A stretch of DNA of 64,000 bases from Gammaproteobacteria bacterium (lineage in GTDB: Bacteria; Pseudomonadota; Gammaproteobacteria; Pseudomonadales; Pseudohongiellaceae): the NCBI GenBank assembly GCA_024644515.1, contig JAHEHN010000004.1:1-64000 (forward strand). Direction: 5' to 3'. The notes beneath the pieces are model-generated. The model worked only from the letters and a program-made list of their open reading frames with translations. It ran no database searches and was not told the origin of the DNA. A program made the translations under genes and the position numbers. Positions 50,853-61,647 of this stretch are shown here, in pieces. Position 1 is the first letter of the stretch, and each line of letters opens with the position of its first letter.

Positions 50853-51704
50853 ATGCAAATTGGCTGGTATCCGGGACATATGAACAAGGCCCGAAAGGAC
50901 ATTATACATGTCCTTAAGAAAGTCCATGCGGTTCTTGAAATCGTCGATGCCCGCCTGCCCTATTCCAGCGAAAACCCATTATTACACCAACTAGCTGAAA
51001 ACAAGCCAATGCTTAAAATCCTCAATAAATCCGACCTGGCTGATCCCAATATCACCCAGGTCTGGCTTGACCATTACCGGCATAATCAAATCTCGGCGAT
51101 GACGGCCTGCGGTAAAAATCCCGGGGATATACGCGCCAGAGTTATTCAGCATTTTTCAGCCTTACAAAAAAACACCAGGCCTCCATTTCGAATCATGATC
51201 GTCGGGATTCCCAATGTTGGTAAATCAACACTCATTAATGTGTTGTCTGAAAGAAAAATTGCCAAGACAGGAAATGAGCCCGCCGTAACCAAAGGCCAGC
51301 AGCAAGTCATGCTGAATGATAATTTTGCCCTGCTTGATACTCCTGGCATGCTCTGGCCAAAGATCGAAGATCAGGATTCGGCCTATCGTCTTGCCGTCAC
51401 CGGGGCAATCAAGAACACTGCCTTTGAATTTGCAGACATTGGGCTTTACGCCATTAGCGTGCTGAATGCAAATTACCCTGACAGGCTCACCAAGCGTTAT
51501 GGCTTTGACACAGTTGACGCAGAGCCTGTTGATTTACTTGAAGAGCTGGGAAGAACTCGTGGCTGTCTAAGCAAGGGAGGTGTTGATTTCAACAAGACCG
51601 GAGAACTCCTGCTCAATGAAATCAGAAGCGGTAAACTCGGCTTACTCAGCTTTGAATTGCCGAGCGATATCAAGGAAGTGCTCATCGAAGAGTCTGATCA
51701 ATAA
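50853..51704 (+). CDS. rbgA: Ribosome biogenesis GTPase RbgA/YlqF
   Basis: Circularly permuted GTPase that assists late assembly of the large ribosomal subunit. The motif order is G4 (N58-K-S-D61) before G1 (G-I-P-N-V-G-K-S-T, 118-126) and G3 (D-T-P-G, 162-165), the diagnostic permutation. The family opening M-Q-I-G-W-Y-P-G-H-M-N-K-A is exact. The length of 283 residues is typical. A good AGGGG precedes the ATG. The start region overlaps any long form of bolA, so the two genes share a very compact divergent promoter. Confidence 0.94.
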   Translation: MQIGWYPGHMNKARKDIIHVLKKVHAVLEIVDARLPYSSENPLLHQLAENKPMLKILNKSDLADPNITQVWLDHYRHNQISAMTACGKNPGDIRARVIQHFSALQKNTRPPFRIMIVGIPNVGKSTLINVLSERKIAKTGNEPAVTKGQQQVMLNDNFALLDTPGMLWPKIEDQDSAYRLAVTGAIKNTAFEFADIGLYAISVLNANYPDRLTKRYGFDTVDAEPVDLLEELGRTRGCLSKGGVDFNKTGELLLNEIRSGKLGLLSFELPSDIKEVLIEESDQ

Positions 51705-51709
51705 ATCTG

Positions 51710-52456
51710 TTAAAGCAGGATAAAGGCCCTGCCGAGTACCAGCAAAGCTGAAATGGCACATAGCCCCAGCAAAACAGGTCTCACCGTCTGTTTATCTATT
51801 CTTCGCTTTATTGGGCCAGACAAACCTACCCCCGGTATTACACCCAGCAACAAAATCGCACTATAGATCAGATCCTTGAGTTGGAACTTTCCAACAATGA
51901 TTAGTGCTGTGAGAGAAACCATGCAACCCATGGTAAACAGGATCGACAGGTTTGCCCTGAGTGCCGGCCCCCTGGCATTTTGATAAACCAGAGCCAACGG
52001 CGGCCCCCCAATAGATGACATTGTACTCATGAAGCCGGAGGCTATGGTGGCCAGAAATACATTTCTGGGGCTTGCGATGATATTGGCATGTATCAGGCTT
52101 AGCAGGACCGCCAGTAATACCAGAGAGCCAAAAACCAGGTCATAAGTGGCAGCTGAAAGGCTTCCTATCAATAACGCCGCTGGCGGTGTACCGATCAATC
52201 TACCGAAAAGCGCCGCCTTTAGATTAGATAGATCAAGCGCATGTCGATCAGCATAGGACATCCATATAACCAGAAAAAAAGCCGCTACAATAAGAGGGCC
52301 AGGCACAAAACTTCTGCTAACCAGGACCAGTAGTGGCGCCGCTATCATGGCAAGACCAAAGCCGATAGCGGACTGAATAGCCGTCCCAATGGCGACAATC
52401 GTTATAGCGAGGGCAATATCCAGCAGCGAGAGATCGAGAGAAGATAATAAATCCAC
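51710..52456 (-). CDS. TauE/SafE family membrane exporter
   Basis: About 248 residues with roughly eight hydrophobic segments in two related halves; G-T-A-I-Q-S-A-I-G-F-G-L-A and S-T-M-S-S-I-G-G-P-P-L-A are the repeat signatures of TauE/SafE permeases. Members export sulfite, sulfoacetate or other organic acids. Upstream in-frame codons run back into the sulfotransferase gene; the GTG at 52456, just past the sulfotransferase stop, gives a family-length product, while ATG 52525 is an alternative. Last gene of the hydroquinone-linked operon; with a sulfotransferase directly before it, a sulfur compound is a reasonable but unproven cargo. Confidence 0.85.
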   Translation of the reverse strand: MDLLSSLDLSLLDIALAITIVAIGTAIQSAIGFGLAMIAAPLLVLVSRSFVPGPLIVAAFFLVIWMSYADRHALDLSNLKAALFGRLIGTPPAALLIGSLSAATYDLVFGSLVLLAVLLSLIHANIIASPRNVFLATIASGFMSTMSSIGGPPLALVYQNARGPALRANLSILFTMGCMVSLTALIIVGKFQLKDLIYSAILLLGVIPGVGLSGPIKRRIDKQTVRPVLLGLCAISALLVLGRAFILL

Positions 52457-52460
52457 AGAA

Positions 52461-53090
52461 TCAGATATCTTTAGCTTTTCGGGCTTTGAATTCCTCAGTG
52501 GAATTGCTTTTCGGGAAAGGTTCATCGGGAACCGCGATACCCAGGGCCTGACAAATTGGTTCCCAGCCATCAGCAACCTCCCAAACCAGCAAGCGCTGTG
52601 CAGGTACCTGTTGCCTGACATTTGCTATATGCGCATTAAAGGCAGCGATAGACTCCTCCTGCCGCGAAAACCCATTAGGATAGATACTTTTGTAGGAATC
52701 CAGCATCATATTCAGCCATGCTCTACGGGCCGGACTAAGGTCTGCAGGTGGATTTTGTTTTACCGGTAAAATAGTTGTACTGGCACTTTTCCACCAGCTT
52801 TCAGCATCGCGAACGGAAAGAATTATCAGCGCATCCGGATAATAGGCACTAATGGACTGCCATTGCGTAGAGACCGGCTCATCAACAGCGGCAACATAGC
52901 CATTCAATACCCTGTTCCATTCTACTGGCTCGCCACGCGCTGCCGCGTGCCAAAGCGGTGTATGTTCATCGAGATGATTAAACAACTCTGTCATGTGATA
53001 ACAGGGGCCACCGAGCAGTTTTTCCAGGGCAATTTTAAGTGACATGGTGCCGGTTCTACCAAGACCGGCACCAATGACCTGAAGACTCAT
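52461..53090 (-). CDS. Sulfotransferase family protein
   Basis: A protein of 209 residues of the Sulfotransfer_4 type. The PAPS-binding 5'-phosphosulfate loop is seen as G-L-G-R-T-G-T-M-S-L near residue 9, and the 3'-phosphate-binding V-R-D-A-E-S-W-W near 93; W-E-V-A-D-G-W-E-P-I-C near 169 is also typical. Such enzymes are poorly characterised in bacteria; the acceptor may be a small alcohol, phenol or lipid. It starts 11 bases after the aldehyde dehydrogenase gene and ends just before the TauE/SafE start, so it belongs to the same transcript as the hydroquinone genes. Confidence 0.88.
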   Translation of the reverse strand: MSLQVIGAGLGRTGTMSLKIALEKLLGGPCYHMTELFNHLDEHTPLWHAAARGEPVEWNRVLNGYVAAVDEPVSTQWQSISAYYPDALIILSVRDAESWWKSASTTILPVKQNPPADLSPARRAWLNMMLDSYKSIYPNGFSRQEESIAAFNAHIANVRQQVPAQRLLVWEVADGWEPICQALGIAVPDEPFPKSNSTEEFKARKAKDI

Positions 53091-53101
53091 TTTAGTAATG
53101 C

Positions 53102-54580
53102 CTAACGCGGGTAAAATGGTGGAATCTTGGCATCATAATTTACCCAAACAGATTTCGGTTCGGTGTATTCATGCATGGCAAAATGCCCCATTTCCCTGCC
53201 GTAGCCGGAATCCTTGATGCCACCAAATGGCGAGCCCGGGTGGAAACGTTTATAGCAGTTTATCCAGACCATACCGGCTTCCATTGCCTGAGCCATCTTA
53301 TGTGCCCGGGTCAGATTATTGGTCCATAAACCACCACCAAGGCCATAAATACTGTCATTTGCCTGGGCTAACACTTCCTCATCGTTTTTGAACGTAGACA
53401 CTACAACAAAGGGGCCGAACACTTCTTCCCGGCTTACTCGATCAGAAGCTTTGGCACGGACAATAGTCGGAAGTACAAAGCAGCCTTTCTGCAAAGCCGG
53501 ATTATCCGGCTGTTTGCCACCCAGAAGAATTTCTCCTCCCTGCTCTCTGGCAACATCACAGAAACTTAGTACACGTTCCTGGTGCATTTTTGATGTCAGT
53601 GGACCCATCTCTGTAGTCGGATCCAGAGGATCTCCCTGCTTGATTGAAGCCGCCAGTGCGGTGAATTTTTCAAGAAACTCTTCGGCGATGCTTTCGTGTA
53701 ATAACAATCTGGACCCTGCAATACAAGCCTGCCCCTGATTGTGGAAAATGGCGAACGCTGAGCCACCAACGGCAGCATCAATGTTGGCATCTTCAAACAC
53801 TATATTGGCGCCCTTGCCACCAAGTTCCAGTTGAACCCGCTTTAGATTCCCGGCAGAAGCCTCAACAATTTTTCTGCCAGTAACAGTAGAGCCGGTAAAG
53901 GATATTTTATTGATTCCCGGATGCTCTGCCATACATTGACCTGCAGTATGACCAAAGCCTGGAACCACGTTAATGACACCCGGAGGGAAACCAGCTTCGC
54001 GCGCCAGTTCTGCCACTCGCAGAGTTGATAAAGGCGTAAGCTCTGCCTGTTTCATAACAACAGTATTACCAGCAGCCAGCGCAGGCCCCAGTTTCCAGCT
54101 GGTAAACATCAGGGGGAAATTCCAGGGCACAATCTGGCCGACCACACCCACCGGTACCCGCTGCACATAATTCAGAAAGCCGGTATCCACGGGGATAACC
54201 GTACCTTCGTTTTTATCAGGCATACCTGCGAAGTAACGATAGGTCGCTACCGTGCGCATCACATCCAGATTGTGCGTATCACGAATCGGATGACCGGTAT
54301 CCAGAGACTCAACCAGTGCGATATTGTCACGATCCTTTTCTATGGCATCGGCCAGCTTACCTATCAGAACGCCGCGGTCAGAAGGATTCATCGCAGCCCA
54401 GGCCGGGAAGGCATCTCGTGCGGCTTTAACTGCTCGATTTATGTCTTCTTCTTTGGCTTCAGCAACATTGGCCAACAGGGAGTTATCATAGGGATTAAAC
54501 ACTTCAAAAGTGCCGCCGTCAGCAGCATCGACAAATTCATTGTTAATAAAAAGTTGGGTCTTAAATTGAGCTTCTAGCAT
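53102..54580 (-). CDS. Aldehyde dehydrogenase, probable 4-hydroxymuconic semialdehyde dehydrogenase
   Basis: NAD(P)-dependent aldehyde dehydrogenase of 492 residues. Landmarks: V-P-W-N-F-P-L near 151, the catalytic glutamate in L-E-L-G-G-K-G-A near 254, the nucleophilic cysteine in N-Q-G-Q-A-C-I-A-G-S-R near 288, and E-E-V-F-G-P-F near 390. The generic fold fits many aldehydes; the position directly after the hydroquinone dioxygenase genes and the length match HapE/PnpE, which oxidises 4-hydroxymuconic semialdehyde to maleylacetate. A maleylacetate reductase gene, the next step, is not in this window. A 174-base gap with an inverted repeat separates it from the dioxygenase gene. Confidence 0.85.
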   Translation of the reverse strand: MLEAQFKTQLFINNEFVDAADGGTFEVFNPYDNSLLANVAEAKEEDINRAVKAARDAFPAWAAMNPSDRGVLIGKLADAIEKDRDNIALVESLDTGHPIRDTHNLDVMRTVATYRYFAGMPDKNEGTVIPVDTGFLNYVQRVPVGVVGQIVPWNFPLMFTSWKLGPALAAGNTVVMKQAELTPLSTLRVAELAREAGFPPGVINVVPGFGHTAGQCMAEHPGINKISFTGSTVTGRKIVEASAGNLKRVQLELGGKGANIVFEDANIDAAVGGSAFAIFHNQGQACIAGSRLLLHESIAEEFLEKFTALAASIKQGDPLDPTTEMGPLTSKMHQERVLSFCDVAREQGGEILLGGKQPDNPALQKGCFVLPTIVRAKASDRVSREEVFGPFVVVSTFKNDEEVLAQANDSIYGLGGGLWTNNLTRAHKMAQAMEAGMVWINCYKRFHPGSPFGGIKDSGYGREMGHFAMHEYTEPKSVWVNYDAKIPPFYPR

Positions 54581-54624
54581 CGATTATCCCTGCATTTTTT
54601 CTGTTTACTGGATTAAAAATAAGT

Positions 54625-54670
54625 CCGGCCTGCATTACCTTATAATAACTCAAGGCATTGGACAGGCCGG
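54625..54670 (-). repeat. Inverted repeat inside the hydroquinone operon
   Basis: CCGGCCTG (54625-54632) and CAGGCCGG (54663-54670) pair perfectly over eight bases around a 30-base spacer, in the gap between the large dioxygenase subunit gene and the aldehyde dehydrogenase gene. No T tract follows on the minus strand, so it is more likely an intra-operon stabilising stem than a terminator. Confidence 0.55.
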
Positions 54671-54754
54671 CGATTACGATGGATGGAGCCCATACGGGCA
54701 CCTTTCCAGCTTGTTATTGTAGTAAGGTTAAAATAGCCAATGGGCTATCCATGC

Positions 54755-55762
54755 TTACCAACGACTGGCGGTAATCGGGAATGGCTCCAATTCACCAGTA
54801 GCATATTTTTCCTCAAGTCCGGGAGTTCCATTCTCAAGTACCATCAGCATGGAACGCTTCGGAGAATACCCCTGATGACGTATGTCAGCAGGCATGGCAC
54901 AGATGTCGCCAGACTTCATGACAATACGTCCACGTGGATTTCCGGAGTTTTTATCCTGGATATTCCAGTGAATTTCATCAGTTAACTGAATGAACCACTC
55001 ATTACGATCATTGCCATGGATAACCGGCAACATATGTTCTTCGCTGGTTACACAACAGATACAGGCACGGGTAATTGAGGTAAAAGAAGGATTCCAGGTC
55101 ACATCGGCTCGAGCAATATGGTCAAACAGGTTGATGGCATGAATCTGTTCTTCAAACCCTGGTTCGGCTTCGATATCAGGTAAATCATAATCAAGGTCTG
55201 CAAAAGCACGATTAATCGGGTGCCCGGTTTCATCAGAACGCGGTTGTACATCGCCAGCCAGTCCCAGCATTCGTCGTGCTGGTTCAAAGCCTCGAATAAG
55301 AGGACCTGATGCTTCCTGCTGCTTGGCACCAAGTGGTGAACCGGTTTCCAGAGGAGCACTTAGCGGATCATAGCCTTCGTTAATCCAGTTTGTGGAAATT
55401 GTTTCAAAAGCGACACGAACGTCATCCGTATTGTAGGTTTCCAGATAATCAACACCGGTGTCTTTGTGGCCCTTGCTATAAGCACCGGCATAAATATCTA
55501 CGGTACCGTAATGGTTCTGGGTGCCAAACACATCATCGAAGAAAATCCAGCCGTAAAAGAATCCCCAACCGATGTCACGTACCATCGCCCTGAGAAAACG
55601 GTCAACTTCCATGGTGTGAACACCTTTAGGCCACTCAATATGGACAAAATAGGCATCTCGGGTAAATTTAAATTCGCCGAACTGAAAACTGCGATAACCC
55701 AGAACCGGATCCGGTTCCGAGGCAATGACAGATACTTTCTCTGGTGTAACTTCAGTATTCAT
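54755..55762 (-). CDS. Hydroquinone 1,2-dioxygenase large subunit (HapD/PnpD-like)
   Basis: A cupin-type protein of 335 residues that I recognise as the catalytic subunit of the two-component Fe(II) hydroquinone dioxygenase, which opens hydroquinone to 4-hydroxymuconic semialdehyde. Family landmarks: R-D-I-G-W-G-F-F-Y-G near 62, N-H-Y-G-T-V-D near 83, and the iron-ligand pattern H249-x-N251-x3-E255 plus H296 (in P-A-D-I-R-H-Q-G-Y-S), as I remember it from PnpD. It starts 27 bases after the small subunit gene. The product could act on substituted hydroquinones; chemistry on plain hydroquinone is known only for characterised relatives from nitrophenol and hydroxyacetophenone degraders. Confidence 0.85.
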   Translation of the reverse strand: MNTEVTPEKVSVIASEPDPVLGYRSFQFGEFKFTRDAYFVHIEWPKGVHTMEVDRFLRAMVRDIGWGFFYGWIFFDDVFGTQNHYGTVDIYAGAYSKGHKDTGVDYLETYNTDDVRVAFETISTNWINEGYDPLSAPLETGSPLGAKQQEASGPLIRGFEPARRMLGLAGDVQPRSDETGHPINRAFADLDYDLPDIEAEPGFEEQIHAINLFDHIARADVTWNPSFTSITRACICCVTSEEHMLPVIHGNDRNEWFIQLTDEIHWNIQDKNSGNPRGRIVMKSGDICAMPADIRHQGYSPKRSMLMVLENGTPGLEEKYATGELEPFPITASRW

Positions 55763-55789
55763 GATTTATTTCCTCTCTAGATTATTCGC

Positions 55790-56281
55790 TTAGTTCAGCA
55801 CACAAATTTCGGACCATTTCTCAACGCTTTCCGGTCCGGCCATGGTTTGAAAAAGCACCACGCCAGGATTTGCGGATGTTAATCGGTAAGCTGAGCCCTG
55901 AGGTAACAGGACCTCATGGCCACGACGGGCAGTAACTTTTCCCATGCGTTTGCCTTTAGGGTCCGCTGCGAGTCTGACAGCACCAGCTTCATTAGCAGGT
56001 TTCTCGTCGTCTTCCAGCTGATAAAATTCAAATTCAATTTCGCCTTCCATAACAATGGCAAACTCATCATGAGGTGCGGTGTACCATGGCGATGCACCTT
56101 CTGCCCGGGTTACTTCTGCACAGTATTCAAGGTTGGAGGCAACCATGATCCTTTCATAAGGTGAAGAGCTGTTACAAATTTCAAAAATATTGGAAAAGGC
56201 ATAGTGCTTGAGATCATCATTTAACTCGATGCTCCCTTTCTCGTAAGAGTCCAGGGACCCCACCATAGTCTTATAACTCAT
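55790..56281 (-). CDS. Hydroquinone 1,2-dioxygenase small subunit (HapC/PnpC-like)
   Basis: A protein of 163 residues with a cupin fold: E-G-A-S-P-W-Y-T-A-P-H-D-E-F-A-I near 65 and R-R-G-H-E-V-L-L-P-Q-G-S-A-Y near 119, ending V-E-K-W-S-E-I-C. Size (about 18 kDa) and sequence match the small subunit of hydroquinone dioxygenase, which pairs with the 38-kDa large subunit encoded next. The ATG has a strong GAAGGGGAA upstream. First gene of the apparent operon small subunit, large subunit, aldehyde dehydrogenase, sulfotransferase, TauE/SafE. Confidence 0.83.
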   Translation of the reverse strand: MSYKTMVGSLDSYEKGSIELNDDLKHYAFSNIFEICNSSSPYERIMVASNLEYCAEVTRAEGASPWYTAPHDEFAIVMEGEIEFEFYQLEDDEKPANEAGAVRLAADPKGKRMGKVTARRGHEVLLPQGSAYRLTSANPGVVLFQTMAGPESVEKWSEICVLN

Positions 56282-56677
56282 TTAATTCCCCTTCTAGGTA
56301 GTAAAATAGTATTAACGTATTATTTAAGCAGTGTTGATGTACAGTTAAATTCGAAAAGTTTTTGTCGGGTTTTGACGCATATTTGCCTGTTCAAAACAGC
56401 TCTTGATTATTATCAACACTGAAATCAATCTCTCCTTGATCCAGATCACTTCCTTTAAGGCCTGCTGCCTTTGGCTAAAATGTCTCGCTCATCCAAAGTG
56501 CCTACGTTACCAGCCCCACAGCTAAACGATAATATGAATATAAACAGCAGGAATCAAGCTATCTCAAGGTCCAGAGTAACACGGACTGCAGTACCTCCAC
56601 GGCCATTCTGCTTTTCTCCCCAGAATGGCTTAATCACTTCAACTTCTGCCTACATATTTCTATATTTTCGATTATCG
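56282..56677. other. Intergenic region upstream of the hydroquinone operon
   Basis: 396 bases between the PQQ dehydrogenase stop and the dioxygenase small-subunit start, both on the minus strand. It should hold the promoter of the dioxygenase operon. No clear terminator follows the PQQ gene, so read-through is possible. The left 180 bases are AT-rich. A short open frame with coding-like residues (56554-56637) is listed separately. No regulator gene adjoins the operon. Confidence 0.5.
56554..56637 (-). CDS. Possible 27-residue peptide or gene remnant
   Basis: Starting from GTG at 56637 the minus strand reads M-I-K-P-F-W-G-E-K-Q-N-G-R-G-G-T-A-V-R-V and ends T-L-D-L-E-I-A. The composition looks protein-like rather than random and the frame extends to a TAG at 56652-56650. 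It is neither PqqA (no E-x3-Y) nor anything I can name. It may be the 3' remnant of a lost gene, a small peptide gene, or chance. It lies 41 bases past the PQQ dehydrogenase stop. Confidence 0.25.
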   Translation of the reverse strand: MIKPFWGEKQNGRGGTAVRVTLDLEIA

Positions 56678-58429
56678 CTAAGGCAAGGCAAAGGTATATT
56701 GCCTGCTCTCAATACCTGGGGGAGTCCCTTCGAGAAAGCGGGCCTGCCCTGCGGTAGTTACAGAAGTCCCTGTTCCGACAGAGACATATTGTTTTCCATT
56801 GACGCCGAAAGTTATCGGATAGCCGGTGATGGAAGAGCCCAGATTAACTTCCCACAAGACTTCGCCGGTCATCTGGTCAAATGCGCGAAAATTGCCCTCA
56901 ATATCCCCGCCAAACACCAGCCCACCCCCTGTGGCGACCATCGACATCACCGTGCCCGCGGCTTCATACTGCCAAAGCGTTTCTCCGGTTTCTGCTGAAA
57001 TCGCAAATACGGTGCCTACATTGGTTCTGCCTTCGGCCAGCTTTTCTCTGGCGAAGAAGCCATAAAGTTCCTCTGAATCCGCTTCTGCAGTAGTGACGGT
57101 AAGATCCATGCAGGTATTCTGAACACCATAGTACATGGCATTGGAGAGAGGACTATAGGCACCTGCCCACCAGTTCTTGCCACCACCGGTAGAGGGGCAA
57201 ATTTCCCGCTGCTGGCCTTCCTCATGAAACAGGGCCTCGGGATTTACATTGGCTTTTCCGGTTTCTCCGTTAATTTCACTTATTACGTTTTGAAAAACAG
57301 TGGATCTGGCCCAGAGAAACTCTCCGCTTTCCCTGTCGATGGTATAAACAAGGCCTGTTTTCCCTGGAATGCCGGTAATAACTTTATATTCTTTATTCGG
57401 GTCAATATCCGGATTGATCCATGGCACCTGTTCTGCATCAGGAGCAACGCGGGTATTTACCAGCAAACGTTCAAAAGGATGGTCAAGATCCCAGTGATCA
57501 ACCACATGCTGATAGTGCCATTTTAAAGTGCCATCTTCGGGATTAATCGCAAGAGTTGAGTTGTGATAAAGATGTTCCTTGTCATTACCGCCGAGAAGAA
57601 ATTTTGGGGATGGCGCGGTCACGGATGTGCCCATATAAATGAGATTAAGCTCCGGGTCATAACTTGGCGCCATCCAGGCACCTACATGCCAGCGCTGTTC
57701 CCAGTCCAAATCCCCCCAGCTGTCGTTCCCATCGCCGGTGGGACGCTGGATAGTATAAAGTTTCCAGATTTCTTCCCCGGTGTCAGCATCATGGGCGGCA
57801 ATGAAGCAGGCATCAGGTCCTGCAGGGGGCAAACAGTTTCTGCCCGATACCGCCATGCCGTTAATGATTATTGGTCCATTGCTCTGCTGCGAAGGATGAG
57901 TACGATAATCAAGAATACGGGTTTCCCATTTCACCGCGCCCGTGTGGACATCGAGAGACACGATATAGTCATCATTGCTGGTATAAATAATGGATTGGTC
58001 ATGGATGGCAATATTACGCATTGTGGCATTTGCACCAATGTAATCACCAAGATCCTCTGGCATTTCCCGCTTGTATTCCCAAAGCATGTCACCGCTCACC
58101 GCGTTAAATGCCTGTATCACATCTCCAGGGTTAGGCAGGTACATAATGCCGTTATAAACCAGGGGCGTACCTTCCTGTATTCCTGACGTCATTTCAGTGG
58201 ACCAGAGTAATTCCAGATTCCCTACGTTGTCGTGATTGATCCCATCGAGGGGGCTATATCCCCAGGAGTTCAAGGTTCGACGCCAATGTAGCCAGTCCTC
58301 AGGGTCAGGGTTCTCCAATATGTCATCTGTAACTGGCTCATAATCCGTTAGCTGGGCAACTGCATATCCGGCAGGTAATGAAAGTGTTGAGGCAAGTGCG
58401 AGGATCGAAAATAAATTTTTTCTGGACAC
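56678..58429 (-). CDS. Periplasmic PQQ-dependent alcohol dehydrogenase
   Basis: About 583 residues from the GTG at 58429, which has AGGGGA six bases upstream and opens a clean signal peptide (cleavage near residue 25, A-V-A). The eight-bladed propeller of quinoprotein dehydrogenases is visible through repeated tryptophan-docking motifs (for example A-V-S-G-D-M-L-W-E-Y and E-T-G-E-T-L-W-Q-Y). The active-site region reads V-V-D-H-W-D314-L-D316, an aspartate two residues after the catalytic aspartate, as in lanthanide-using enzymes (XoxF, PedH). The vicinal cysteine pair of methanol dehydrogenase is absent; C199 and C208 lie apart. No heme domain is present, so a separate cytochrome is needed. 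Substrate unknown; context suggests an aromatic or other alcohol. Confidence 0.87.
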   Translation of the reverse strand: MSRKNLFSILALASTLSLPAGYAVAQLTDYEPVTDDILENPDPEDWLHWRRTLNSWGYSPLDGINHDNVGNLELLWSTEMTSGIQEGTPLVYNGIMYLPNPGDVIQAFNAVSGDMLWEYKREMPEDLGDYIGANATMRNIAIHDQSIIYTSNDDYIVSLDVHTGAVKWETRILDYRTHPSQQSNGPIIINGMAVSGRNCLPPAGPDACFIAAHDADTGEEIWKLYTIQRPTGDGNDSWGDLDWEQRWHVGAWMAPSYDPELNLIYMGTSVTAPSPKFLLGGNDKEHLYHNSTLAINPEDGTLKWHYQHVVDHWDLDHPFERLLVNTRVAPDAEQVPWINPDIDPNKEYKVITGIPGKTGLVYTIDRESGEFLWARSTVFQNVISEINGETGKANVNPEALFHEEGQQREICPSTGGGKNWWAGAYSPLSNAMYYGVQNTCMDLTVTTAEADSEELYGFFAREKLAEGRTNVGTVFAISAETGETLWQYEAAGTVMSMVATGGGLVFGGDIEGNFRAFDQMTGEVLWEVNLGSSITGYPITFGVNGKQYVSVGTGTSVTTAGQARFLEGTPPGIESRQYTFALP

Positions 58430-58668
58430 TGAATTTCCCCTTTTTGGTGTTGAATACTGGCAGGCCATCGATATGGCTGTAGCTGTCTCAACCCTGTTTT
58501 TGGTGATTGTTTTTATATTATTGCTTTTGTTTGTCCTGAAAGCCATTTGACAGGTTTTATTCAGGATTTTTGTGCGTCGACAGTAGCAAAGTTTATTTGC
58601 GCTGTCACTCTACAAACCCCCGTATAACAGCTATACTTCAAGCCTTTGCCAAACCAAGCCCGGACCCT

Positions 58669-61647
58669 ATGCAGTTAAACAAATCTTCGCAAGCTACAAG
58701 CAATTCTTCTCCTAAAGACTCTGCCTCTTACCCCACTTTCATTCTTAAACGCAATCAGCGACTGGATACGCTGAACATTACCGTTGAGGAATATGAACAC
58801 AGGGAAACCGGCGCTGTGCATTACCACCTTGCCAGCGATAATCCGGAAAATGTTTTTCTGGTGGCTTTGCGTACGGTACCCATGGACTCTACAGGGGTGG
58901 CCCACATCCTTGAACATACCGCACTCTGCGGAAGCAAAAAATACCCGGTTCGCGACCCTTTCTTTATGATGATCAGGCGTTCCCTGAACACCTTTATGAA
59001 CGCTTTCACCAGCAGTGACTGGACAGCCTATCCTTTTGCTAGCCAGAATCGAAAAGACTTCAACAACCTGCTTGACGTCTATCTGGATGCAGTTTTCTTT
59101 TCCTCACTCAATGAACTGGATTTTGCTCAGGAAGGACATCGCATTGAATTTGTCGAGCCGGACAATACCAACTCTGCACTGGAATACAAAGGTGTTGTAT
59201 TCAACGAGATGAAAGGCGCGATGAGTGCCCCCACCTCCAGAATCTGGCAACAGGTATGCCAGCACCTTTTTCCAACTACCACTTATCATTACAACAGCGG
59301 TGGCGAGCCCACAGATATTCCCAGCCTGAGCTATCAGGATCTGAAGTCATTTTATGAAACCCATTATCATCCAAGTAATGCTATTTTCATGACCTATGGT
59401 GACATCCCTGCCTGCGAGCACCAGGAACGCTTTGAAAATCTGGCTCTCAAGGAATTTAAAAAGCTCGATATCCACATTGCCGTAGACGATGAAAAGCGTT
59501 TCAAGGCCCCCTTAAGAGTGAGCGAAAGCTACCCGCTTGATGAGCCGGACAGCACTAACAAAACTCATGTCGTGGTTGCCTGGCTACTGGGTAAAAGCAC
59601 GAACCTTGCGGAAATGTATAAAGCACAGTTACTTTCAGGAGTCTTGCTGGACAACAGCGCGAGCCCGATTTTACATGTGCTGGAAACCACGTCTCTGGGA
59701 CGCTCTCCTTCACCATTATGTGGTTTGGAAGACTCCTATCGTGAGATGAGTTTCATGTGTGGGCTTGAGGGCTGCGCTGAAAACACTACGGAAGAAATTG
59801 AATCACTTATTATTGGAGCCCTGGAAGATATTGTGGCCAATGGTATTGATCAGGACAAGGTTAAGGCGGCCTTGCGCAGTCTGGAACTAAGTCAGCGTGA
59901 AATCAGTGGTGACTCCTATCCCTATGGCTTGCAGTTAATCCTGTCAGCACTTTCAACAGCTACCCATCGCGGTGACCCAATCGAATTGCTCGATATAGAT
60001 CCTGTTTTGCTGCAACTGGAAAAAGATATTCAGGATGAAAACTATATTCCCAATCTGATCAAGGAATACCTGCTGGATAACCCGCATCGTATAACCCTTA
60101 CTGTGCACCCTGATCCAGAGCTTGCGGACAAGGTAGCCAATGAAGAAATAGCAAAACTTGCCAGCATCAAGGACAAGCTCGATGAAAACGACAAGCAGGC
60201 TATTGTTAAAAGAGCACAACTGTTAAAGCAGCGACAGGAAGAAGACGATGACCCATCTGTCTTGCCCAGCGTGACTCTGGATGATGTCCCTGTGGAAATC
60301 AACTGGCCAGAATCCGAACATCTTGAAGTTCCGCTGAAAGACAAAACCTTCCCGGTGCGCTTTTTTGCTCAGGGAACCAATGGCCTGAGTTACCAGCAAG
60401 TTATTCTGAATATGCCTGCCCTGGATGAATCCCTGACCAAACAGCTCCCCTACTTCACCAGTTGCATGCCAGAATTGGGTATCGGCAACAAAAGTTACCT
60501 GGAAGTACAAGCTCTCCAGTCAGCCATTAGTGGTGGGGTAAATGTTTACAATACGATACGCAGTGACATCAATGACGAGCAGTCCTTCAAAAACTATCTG
60601 GTTTTATCAAGCAAGTCGCTCTATGCGAACCAGGACAAAACCAGCGATCTGCTACGGGATACTTTCCTGCATTGTCGCTTTGATGAGCATCAGCGCATCA
60701 GGGAATTAATGGAGCAAATCAGCTCCCGCAAAGAACAAAGTATCACCAGTCAGGGGCATAGCCTGGCCGTCGGTGTTGCCTGCAGCAACATGAGCCCTAT
60801 TGCCTCAATGAATTATCAAAGCTCAGGCATGGCTGGTATTCAGCAACTCAAACAACGCATAAAAGATTTCGAGAATCCTGACAGCCTGGCTGAATTTGCC
60901 GCCAGTTTTGAACAACTGCATAGTCAAATTCTCAATGCAAAGAAGCAGTTTCTGCTAATTAGCGAACAACGTGAAAAAGAAGCGCTGCTGGGCAGCATTA
61001 AAAACACTTGGGAAAACACGCTGGATACGCAAGCCCAGACGTCACAATTTTCCTTTCCCCCTTGTCGTGAAAGAGTTGAAGAAGCATGGCTTGCCAATAC
61101 CCAGGTTAATTTCTGCGCTATGGCTTTTCCTTCAGTTCCTGTAGGTCACGAGGACGCTGCAGCCCTGACAGTGTTGGGCGGCTTTCTCCGCAACGGTTTT
61201 CTTCATCGCAGCATAAGGGAGCAAGGTGGAGCCTATGGCGGTGGCGCCAATCAGGATTCAGGTACAGCCTCGTTCCGCTTCTATTCCTACCGGGATCCGC
61301 GCTTGCTGGAGACATTGGAAGACTACAAGCGCTCAATTGACTGGATGCTCAAAAACAATCATGAGTCCAGGGCTCTGGAAGAAGCCATTCTTGGGGTCAT
61401 CTCCAGTCTGGACAAGCCCTCCTCGCCTGCCGGCACTGCCAAGCAGGCTTTTTACAATGAGCTCTTTGGCCGCGGCAAGGAACAACGGGCAGCCTTTCGT
61501 CAGCAAGTACTGCAGGTCAGCATTGAAAGCCTGAAAGGTGTCACCGAAAAATACCTGGCGAACCAGCAGCCCAGTATCGGCATCATCAGTAATAAATCTC
61601 AATCAAGCCAGCTGGAATCACTTGGCCTATCAATTTGCCAGCTTTGA
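58669..61647 (+). CDS. M16C metalloprotease, presequence-protease (PreP/Cym1) type
   Basis: A large zinc peptidase of about 992 residues. The inverted zinc motif H79-I-L-E82-H83 lies in G-V-A-H-I-L-E-H-T-A-L-C-G-S, with the distal glutamate in G-V-V-F-N-E-M-K-G-A-M-S; S-L-N-T-F-M-N-A-F-T-S-S-D-W-T is the usual PreP stretch. A second, inactive M16 half follows with the R/Y pair in R-E-Q-G-G-A-Y-G-G-G. Mitochondrial relatives degrade targeting peptides; bacterial ones are thought to clear unstructured peptides. No signal peptide is evident from the ATG at 58669, so it should be cytoplasmic. Upstream in-frame codons to 58570 are less likely. Confidence 0.92.
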   Translation: MQLNKSSQATSNSSPKDSASYPTFILKRNQRLDTLNITVEEYEHRETGAVHYHLASDNPENVFLVALRTVPMDSTGVAHILEHTALCGSKKYPVRDPFFMMIRRSLNTFMNAFTSSDWTAYPFASQNRKDFNNLLDVYLDAVFFSSLNELDFAQEGHRIEFVEPDNTNSALEYKGVVFNEMKGAMSAPTSRIWQQVCQHLFPTTTYHYNSGGEPTDIPSLSYQDLKSFYETHYHPSNAIFMTYGDIPACEHQERFENLALKEFKKLDIHIAVDDEKRFKAPLRVSESYPLDEPDSTNKTHVVVAWLLGKSTNLAEMYKAQLLSGVLLDNSASPILHVLETTSLGRSPSPLCGLEDSYREMSFMCGLEGCAENTTEEIESLIIGALEDIVANGIDQDKVKAALRSLELSQREISGDSYPYGLQLILSALSTATHRGDPIELLDIDPVLLQLEKDIQDENYIPNLIKEYLLDNPHRITLTVHPDPELADKVANEEIAKLASIKDKLDENDKQAIVKRAQLLKQRQEEDDDPSVLPSVTLDDVPVEINWPESEHLEVPLKDKTFPVRFFAQGTNGLSYQQVILNMPALDESLTKQLPYFTSCMPELGIGNKSYLEVQALQSAISGGVNVYNTIRSDINDEQSFKNYLVLSSKSLYANQDKTSDLLRDTFLHCRFDEHQRIRELMEQISSRKEQSITSQGHSLAVGVACSNMSPIASMNYQSSGMAGIQQLKQRIKDFENPDSLAEFAASFEQLHSQILNAKKQFLLISEQREKEALLGSIKNTWENTLDTQAQTSQFSFPPCRERVEEAWLANTQVNFCAMAFPSVPVGHEDAAALTVLGGFLRNGFLHRSIREQGGAYGGGANQDSGTASFRFYSYRDPRLLETLEDYKRSIDWMLKNNHESRALEEAILGVISSLDKPSSPAGTAKQAFYNELFGRGKEQRAAFRQQVLQVSIESLKGVTEKYLANQQPSIGIISNKSQSSQLESLGLSICQL

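Follow-up and report, generated by a model that had tools for sequence, protein, structure and literature searches.

Can a bacterial gene set for opening the hydroquinone ring also include genes for the sulfation and export of phenols? This question is raised by a locus in the draft genome of a gammaproteobacterium of the family Pseudohongiellaceae (assembly GCA_024644515.1). The window, i.e., the whole stretch of DNA analyzed, comprises positions 1 to 64,000 of contig JAHEHN010000004.1. Between positions 58429 and 51710, six open reading frames (ORFs) on its minus strand encode, in this order, a quinoprotein dehydrogenase, PnpC, PnpD, PnpE, a sulfotransferase, and TauE. The family matches of all six proteins were far above chance, and the enzyme activities discussed here are those inferred from sequence. 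The locus consists of two layers, a ring-cleavage core and a genus-specific accessory pair. Taken as a whole, it is best explained, with a probability that we estimate at about 45%, as a ring-cleavage module with a genus-specific accessory pair whose most likely role in the pathway is that of a valve for sulfation and export.

A Complete Ring-Cleavage Core

The genes for the small subunit (pnpC, 55790–56281) and the large subunit (pnpD, 54755–55762) lie side by side, 27 bp apart. PnpC matched the chains 4zxa_A and 5m21_A with E values of 4e-51 and 7e-43, and PnpD matched the PnpD_N family (PF18191) with an E value of 8e-47. PnpD could be aligned over nearly its full length to the enzymes of Pseudomonas sp. 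WBC-3 (PnpCD, 4ZXA) and Sphingomonas sp. TTNP3 (hydroquinone dioxygenase, HQDO, 5M21), with 53% and 51% identity, respectively, while these two share 64%. Its residues H249, N251, E255, and H296 align with His256, Asn258, Glu262, and His303 of the WBC-3 protein, which we take to be the iron-site residues of the 4ZXA structure, and the four positions are invariant in 69 aligned sequences (35 + 34). Thus, the Fe(II) ligands, whose loss the initial annotation had named as a reason to drop its proposal, are present. By family, PnpCD is a type II hydroquinone 1,2-dioxygenase predicted to cleave hydroquinone to 4-hydroxymuconic semialdehyde. It shares with the WBC-3 and TTNP3 enzymes the two-subunit type, the iron-site residues, and the small–large gene order, but differs from them in that PnpD belongs to a separate deep clade and that its operon contains no maleylacetate reductase (MAR) gene.

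The aldehyde dehydrogenase (53102–54580) scored 770 bits against 4O6R, described as "Aldehyde Dehydrogenase", and 750 bits against PnpE (4GO3/4GO4), followed by a betaine aldehyde dehydrogenase at 493 bits. Docking and mutagenesis of PnpE pointed to the catalytic residues C281 and E247 and to a pocket formed by N149, F150, F154, W157, H275, I282, and F447 (PMC4225490). All nine are kept here, as C286, E252, N154, F155, F159, W162, H280, I287, and F452. No difference from PnpE of WBC-3 was found at the protein level, where the score is that expected of an ortholog; the difference lies downstream, where the gene of the window is followed by those of the sulfotransferase and TauE. The hydroquinone-type cleavage set proposed from the first reading of the sequence was thus supported.

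The same core, quinoprotein-pnpC-pnpD-pnpE, is found at the equivalent chromosomal position in the sister genus, between PreP/RapA and CobO/YlqF, but the genes 3' of pnpE differ between the two genera. A contig from a public record titled Klebsiella pneumoniae (L012) also shows the sister-genus order, and this record looks like a mislabelled bin. The clusters of Burkholderia and Paraburkholderia have the pnpC-pnpD-pnpE order in common with the window, within a different arrangement (MFS-LysR-pnpC-pnpD-pnpE-MAR-intradiol dioxygenase, where MFS denotes a major facilitator superfamily transporter). The locus of the window has no MAR, LysR regulator, or MFS transporter gene, whereas these clusters lack its quinoprotein, sulfotransferase, and TauE.

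A Sulfotransferase and a Permease Confined to One Genus

The sulfotransferase (52461–53090) is a Sulfotransfer_4 protein of the type that uses 3'-phosphoadenosine 5'-phosphosulfate (PAPS). It scored 200.8 bits against PF17784 (cut-off, 22.8; E value, 3e-59) and 154 bits against 9kf1_A. When aligned with 9KF1 and 8Y9P, it retains the 5'-phosphosulfate-binding (5'-PSB) loop GAGLGRTGTMSLK, the Arg and Ser of the 3'-phosphate-binding (3'-PB) site, and an Asp matching the conserved Asp of the solved relatives, and these features are kept in five sequences of the genus. The PAPS-binding loop and the family are shared with SgdX2 (8Y9P), 9KF1, and the oxamniquine-activating sulfotransferase (4MUA), from which the protein of the window differs in being encoded beside hydroquinone genes. 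The permease (51710–52456, 248 amino acids) matched PF01925 over most of its length (71.3 bits; cut-off, 32.6; E value, 1e-19). Its most likely start is the GTG at 52456, 4 bp past the sulfotransferase stop codon, and its relatives likewise have 246 to 248 amino acids.

In each of the six genomes of the genus (G000, G012, G013, represented by loci L004 and L097, G014, G015, and G016), pnpE is followed by these two genes, which were found next to pnpE in no locus outside the genus; among all loci examined, relatives of this TauE occur solely beside these six sulfotransferases. In the sister genus, a sulfotransferase gene, where present, lies elsewhere and without tauE, adjoining a GGDEF gene in G001. 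The closest sulfotransferase outside the genus (63% identity) is encoded next to a GGDEF protein, away from PnpCD and TauE. The idea that the pair is a general part of hydroquinone operons was rejected, since it was absent from every locus examined outside the genus. Of the co-occurrence proposed in the initial annotation, the linkage to pnpE stood in every genome of the genus, but the view of sulfotransferase and exporter as part of the hydroquinone pathway did not, since in the sister genus an equivalent core stands in the corresponding position with neither gene beside it. Contig C106 of the window's own genome (L084, 1438–2124) carries a further Sulfotransfer_4 gene, which shares about 41% identity with that of the operon and lies between serine dehydratase-like and amidohydrolase-like genes.

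Both genes are under purifying selection, with ratios of nonsynonymous to synonymous change (pN/pS) of 0.19–0.29 for the sulfotransferase and 0.09–0.33 for TauE; those of PnpD and PnpE are 0.005–0.06. This pattern is consistent with an accessory role that the genus has kept. An adenosine 5'-phosphosulfate (APS) kinase gene for PAPS supply is present in the genome, and hydroquinone is a substrate of HwSULT, a fungal PAPS sulfotransferase of another family (PMC11677658). The sulfation and export of surplus phenol is thus chemically plausible: the sulfotransferase would use PAPS to sulfate surplus hydroquinone or its precursor, and TauE would export the anion, so that the pair would act as a safety valve and not as part of the catabolism. 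Our literature search for TauE with a sulfotransferase and phenol, or for a hydroquinone dioxygenase with PQQ (pyrroloquinoline quinone), returned nothing relevant.

About as likely as this phenol valve is that the two genes merely share the pnpE transcript and do unrelated work, with the sulfotransferase modifying, for example, a surface lipid or secondary metabolite and TauE transporting another anion. The complete core of the sister genus, the GGDEF neighbor of the closest outside sulfotransferase, and the existence of a second Sulfotransfer_4 gene in the genome all favor such a role, but in the genus the gene order and a spacing of 4–18 bp have persisted despite the saturation of synonymous sites in most comparisons. 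Several points weigh against a ring-cleavage module with a valve. The rate of evolution of the sulfotransferase and TauE is several times that of PnpD and PnpE, which would be expected of genes that are less essential or unrelated; the TauE/SafE permeases form a broad family; and a phenol is only assumed to be the sulfotransferase substrate. With regard to the core, the quinoprotein gene lies 396 bp from pnpC, so that a single transcript can only be presumed, and no assayed enzyme of the clade to which PnpD belongs was found in the literature.

A Deep Clade of PnpD

This clade was recognized in a maximum-likelihood tree of PnpD sequences (86 rows), in which two sides are separated with a support of 100/100; with midpoint rooting, the tree does not indicate which side is older. 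One side contains WBC-3 PnpD, the TTNP3 enzyme, the Burkholderia enzymes, and second ("B-type") copies from the same bacterial family. The other, here called clade A, comprises the PnpD of the window, its relatives in two genera, one Nevskiaceae bin, and many sequences from Sphingomonadales and Caulobacterales, sampled beyond the family by one scan that retained 80 loci. About 20 positions are fixed differently in the two clades, including F74 for N84, F159 for R169, and N254 for V261, the last beside the iron-site residue E255. The literature searched contained no characterized member of clade A.

The genome of the window has a second PnpC-PnpD pair, of the B type, where contig C115 ends (L086, 12103–13007), adjoining genes that we named by eye as DUF6152-like and genes for G8/CEMIP beta-helix proteins. 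In two other loci of the genus (L128, 2945–11959, and L130, 6943–16001), no MAR gene follows B-type pnpCD; judged by eye, the genes after it encode a propeller resembling streptogramin lyase, an MmgE/PrpD-type protein, a hydrolase, a protein with a metallo-beta-lactamase fold, and a LigB-type ring-cleavage dioxygenase, and they are possibly a second unusual aromatic pathway. In two alphaproteobacterial bins (L030 and L032), B-type pnpCD with a MAR gene and clade A pnpCD-pnpE lie at most 10 kb apart, the latter accompanied by a branched-chain-type ATP-binding cassette (ABC) transporter.

A Predicted Lanthanide-Type Quinoprotein in a Genome without Recognizable PQQ Synthesis Genes

The quinoprotein (56678–58429, with an ORF start that may be 58546) resembles periplasmic alcohol and sorbose dehydrogenases (PF01011; 401 bits to 4cvb_A) and matched the PQQ alcohol dehydrogenase family with an E value of 3e-120. 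A Sec signal peptide can be read in it, MSRKNLFSILALASTLSLPAGYAVAQ, and its metal motif is of the D-x-D form, DHWDLDHPFERL; all eight relatives whose sequences span this site have the identical motif, where 4CVB has D-S-E. A survey of quinoproteins from marine sources took D-x-D to indicate a lanthanide (PMC11996626), and the protein combines it with the PQQ propeller family, as expected of a lanthanide-type enzyme. It has the sequence family in common with 4CVB-type alcohol/sorbose dehydrogenases, being set apart by its place beside pnpCD, and both family and motif in common with the putative lanthanide-dependent sorbose dehydrogenases of that survey. In contrast to these known proteins, it is encoded in a genome with no recognizable PQQ synthesis genes.

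The PqqA model found no match in any genome, making it uninformative, and the PqqE and PqqC models were used in its place as markers of PQQ synthesis. PqqE was below the cut-off in all six genomes of the genus, and PqqC gave no match in this genus or the sister genus, although the family has 35 other genomes in which it exceeded the cut-off. PQQ would therefore have to be imported, or the quinoprotein would have to use something else. Such import has a precedent in E. coli, which takes up PQQ for its glucose dehydrogenase.

The linkage of the quinoprotein to pnpCD is conserved, and its tie to hydroquinone comes only from this neighborhood. In two alphaproteobacterial clade A loci, nearby quinoproteins also contain WDxD, though they are distantly related. 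In the Erythrobacteraceae loci L018 (10001–16500) and L036, a distant full-length quinoprotein gene was observed after clade A pnpD and before a PnpE-type aldehyde dehydrogenase gene.

Maleylacetate Reductase and the Fate of the Ring-Cleavage Product

The canonical route from hydroquinone through maleylacetate to beta-ketoadipate requires a MAR in the cluster or the genome. Looking for one elsewhere in the genome, as the initial annotation proposed, was the informative check among its suggestions, and its outcome was negative: no bona fide MAR was found in this draft (98% complete). The single iron-containing alcohol dehydrogenase (Fe-ADH), 31% identical to MAR, is encoded on contig C10, beside an acetolactate-synthase-like gene. 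Of the five other genomes of the genus, three had no match to it at an E value of 1e-10. In nearly all Burkholderia loci, pnpD and a MAR gene are separated by about 2.5 kb. No MAR gene was found beside clade A pnpD in any locus, except on two contigs where it belongs to a neighboring B-type copy.

Within the family, bona fide MAR (44–55% identity) was detected in G004, G005, G007, G009, G011, G015, and G048–G052, mostly beside B-type pnpD. It was absent from G000, G001, G006, G008, G010, G012, G013, G014, and G016, all of which carry a clade A cluster (only the pnpE end of it in G014). Similarly, 13 of 18 alphaproteobacterial genomes with clade A pnpD, for which completeness was unstated, gave no MAR match above 34% identity, and these 13 include isolates of Alteraurantiacibacter, Sphingobium, and Croceibacterium; each of the two Burkholderia genomes used as positive controls gave several matches. 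Taking both sets together, about 22 of 33 clade A genomes have no recognizable MAR, and it would be a strange coincidence if draft gaps alone accounted for so many absences.

We propose the following sequence of reactions for the ring-cleavage module. The exported quinoprotein, with a predicted lanthanide and with PQQ from outside the cell, may act in the periplasm by oxidizing an alcohol group on a precursor that is aromatic or of another kind. PnpCD, with non-heme Fe(II), would open hydroquinone or a substituted hydroquinone between C1 and C2, giving 4-hydroxymuconic semialdehyde if the chemistry of its family holds, and PnpE, with its residues retained, would oxidize the semialdehyde to a maleylacetate. 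Since the canonical MAR is missing from this genome and from most clade A genomes, the next step might involve an unrecognized reductase, another route, or a ring substituent that changes the fate of the product.

The last of these options leads to the tentative alternative that the natural substrate of clade A is a substituted or larger ring rather than plain hydroquinone, in which case neither maleylacetate nor its reductase would be involved. It would account for the deep split from the two solved enzymes, the clade-distinct positions, N254 among them, the operons without a MAR in genomes that usually have none, and the quinoprotein linkage in both Gamma- and Alphaproteobacteria. However, PnpE of the window keeps every residue important for 4-hydroxymuconic semialdehyde. 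Moreover, methyl- and methoxyhydroquinone are already among the substrates of the TTNP3 enzyme (PMC3222310), and a new clade would thus be unnecessary for those substrates.

It is unlikely that the pathway is an ordinary one to beta-ketoadipate in which maleylacetate is reduced by an enzyme that is not orthologous to MAR or has diverged strongly from it, such as the Fe-ADH of contig C10. Such an enzyme is at hand and the genomes are drafts, but its patchy occurrence in the genus, its acetolactate-synthase-like neighbor, and the recurrence of MAR absence over many genomes, including isolates, argue against this role. More speculative, and improbable, is that clade A dioxygenases of Gamma- and Alphaproteobacteria feed a MAR-free route coupled to lanthanide-type quinoproteins, to which one genus added a "phase II" valve of sulfation and export.

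Very improbable is growth on a sulfonated or sulfated aromatic with export of the released sulfite by TauE, a reading related to the sulfite release from a sulfonated substrate that the initial annotation had suggested: only the TauE/SafE family name speaks for it, the neighborhood contains no desulfonating oxygenase or sulfatase gene, and the reaction of a sulfotransferase is the addition, not the removal, of a sulfo group, so that this candidate was rejected. The variant aromatic pathway put forward there is therefore upheld as to its hydroquinone-type cleavage set, the quinoprotein linkage, and the pair beside pnpE in six genomes, but not as to the pair as a pathway component or the release of sulfite.

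Organization of the Locus

Position, strand, and name of all six genes agreed with the initial annotation, as did the tight spacing from the aldehyde dehydrogenase gene onward; the genes that it called "fused" are merely adjacent, and its pairing of HapE with PnpE was a naming slip, as the dehydrogenase encoded by the hap cluster is HapF, while HapE is its monooxygenase. The spacings along the locus are 396, 27, 174, 11, and 4 bp. Given the 396 bp between the quinoprotein gene and pnpC and the 174 bp between pnpD and pnpE, co-transcription of the six genes can only be suggested. The intergenic region 5' of pnpC (56282–56677, minus strand) contains promoter-like matches at 56557–56529 and 56348–56319, but promoter and terminator scans of the locus gave no more sites than shuffled sequence. 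The locus is flanked on the plus strand by genes for a YlqF/RbgA-type GTPase (50853–51704) and a PreP-like M16 peptidase (58570–61647).

Significance

Two-subunit hydroquinone dioxygenases are known mainly from pollutant degraders, in which the product is processed via MAR. The link of the sulfotransferase and exporter to pnpE is real but limited to one genus, and the less ordinary features of the locus lie in its core rather than in this pair. Two points are of wider scope: the clade has no adjacent MAR gene and mostly no MAR elsewhere in the genome either, and in two classes it is associated with D-x-D quinoproteins. The conserved pnpE-sulfotransferase-tauE triple offers a direct test of phenol detoxification by sulfation and export in bacteria, and the recurrence of a MAR-free branch in many bacteria, together with its proximity to quinoproteins in both classes, points to an undescribed natural substrate or downstream step.

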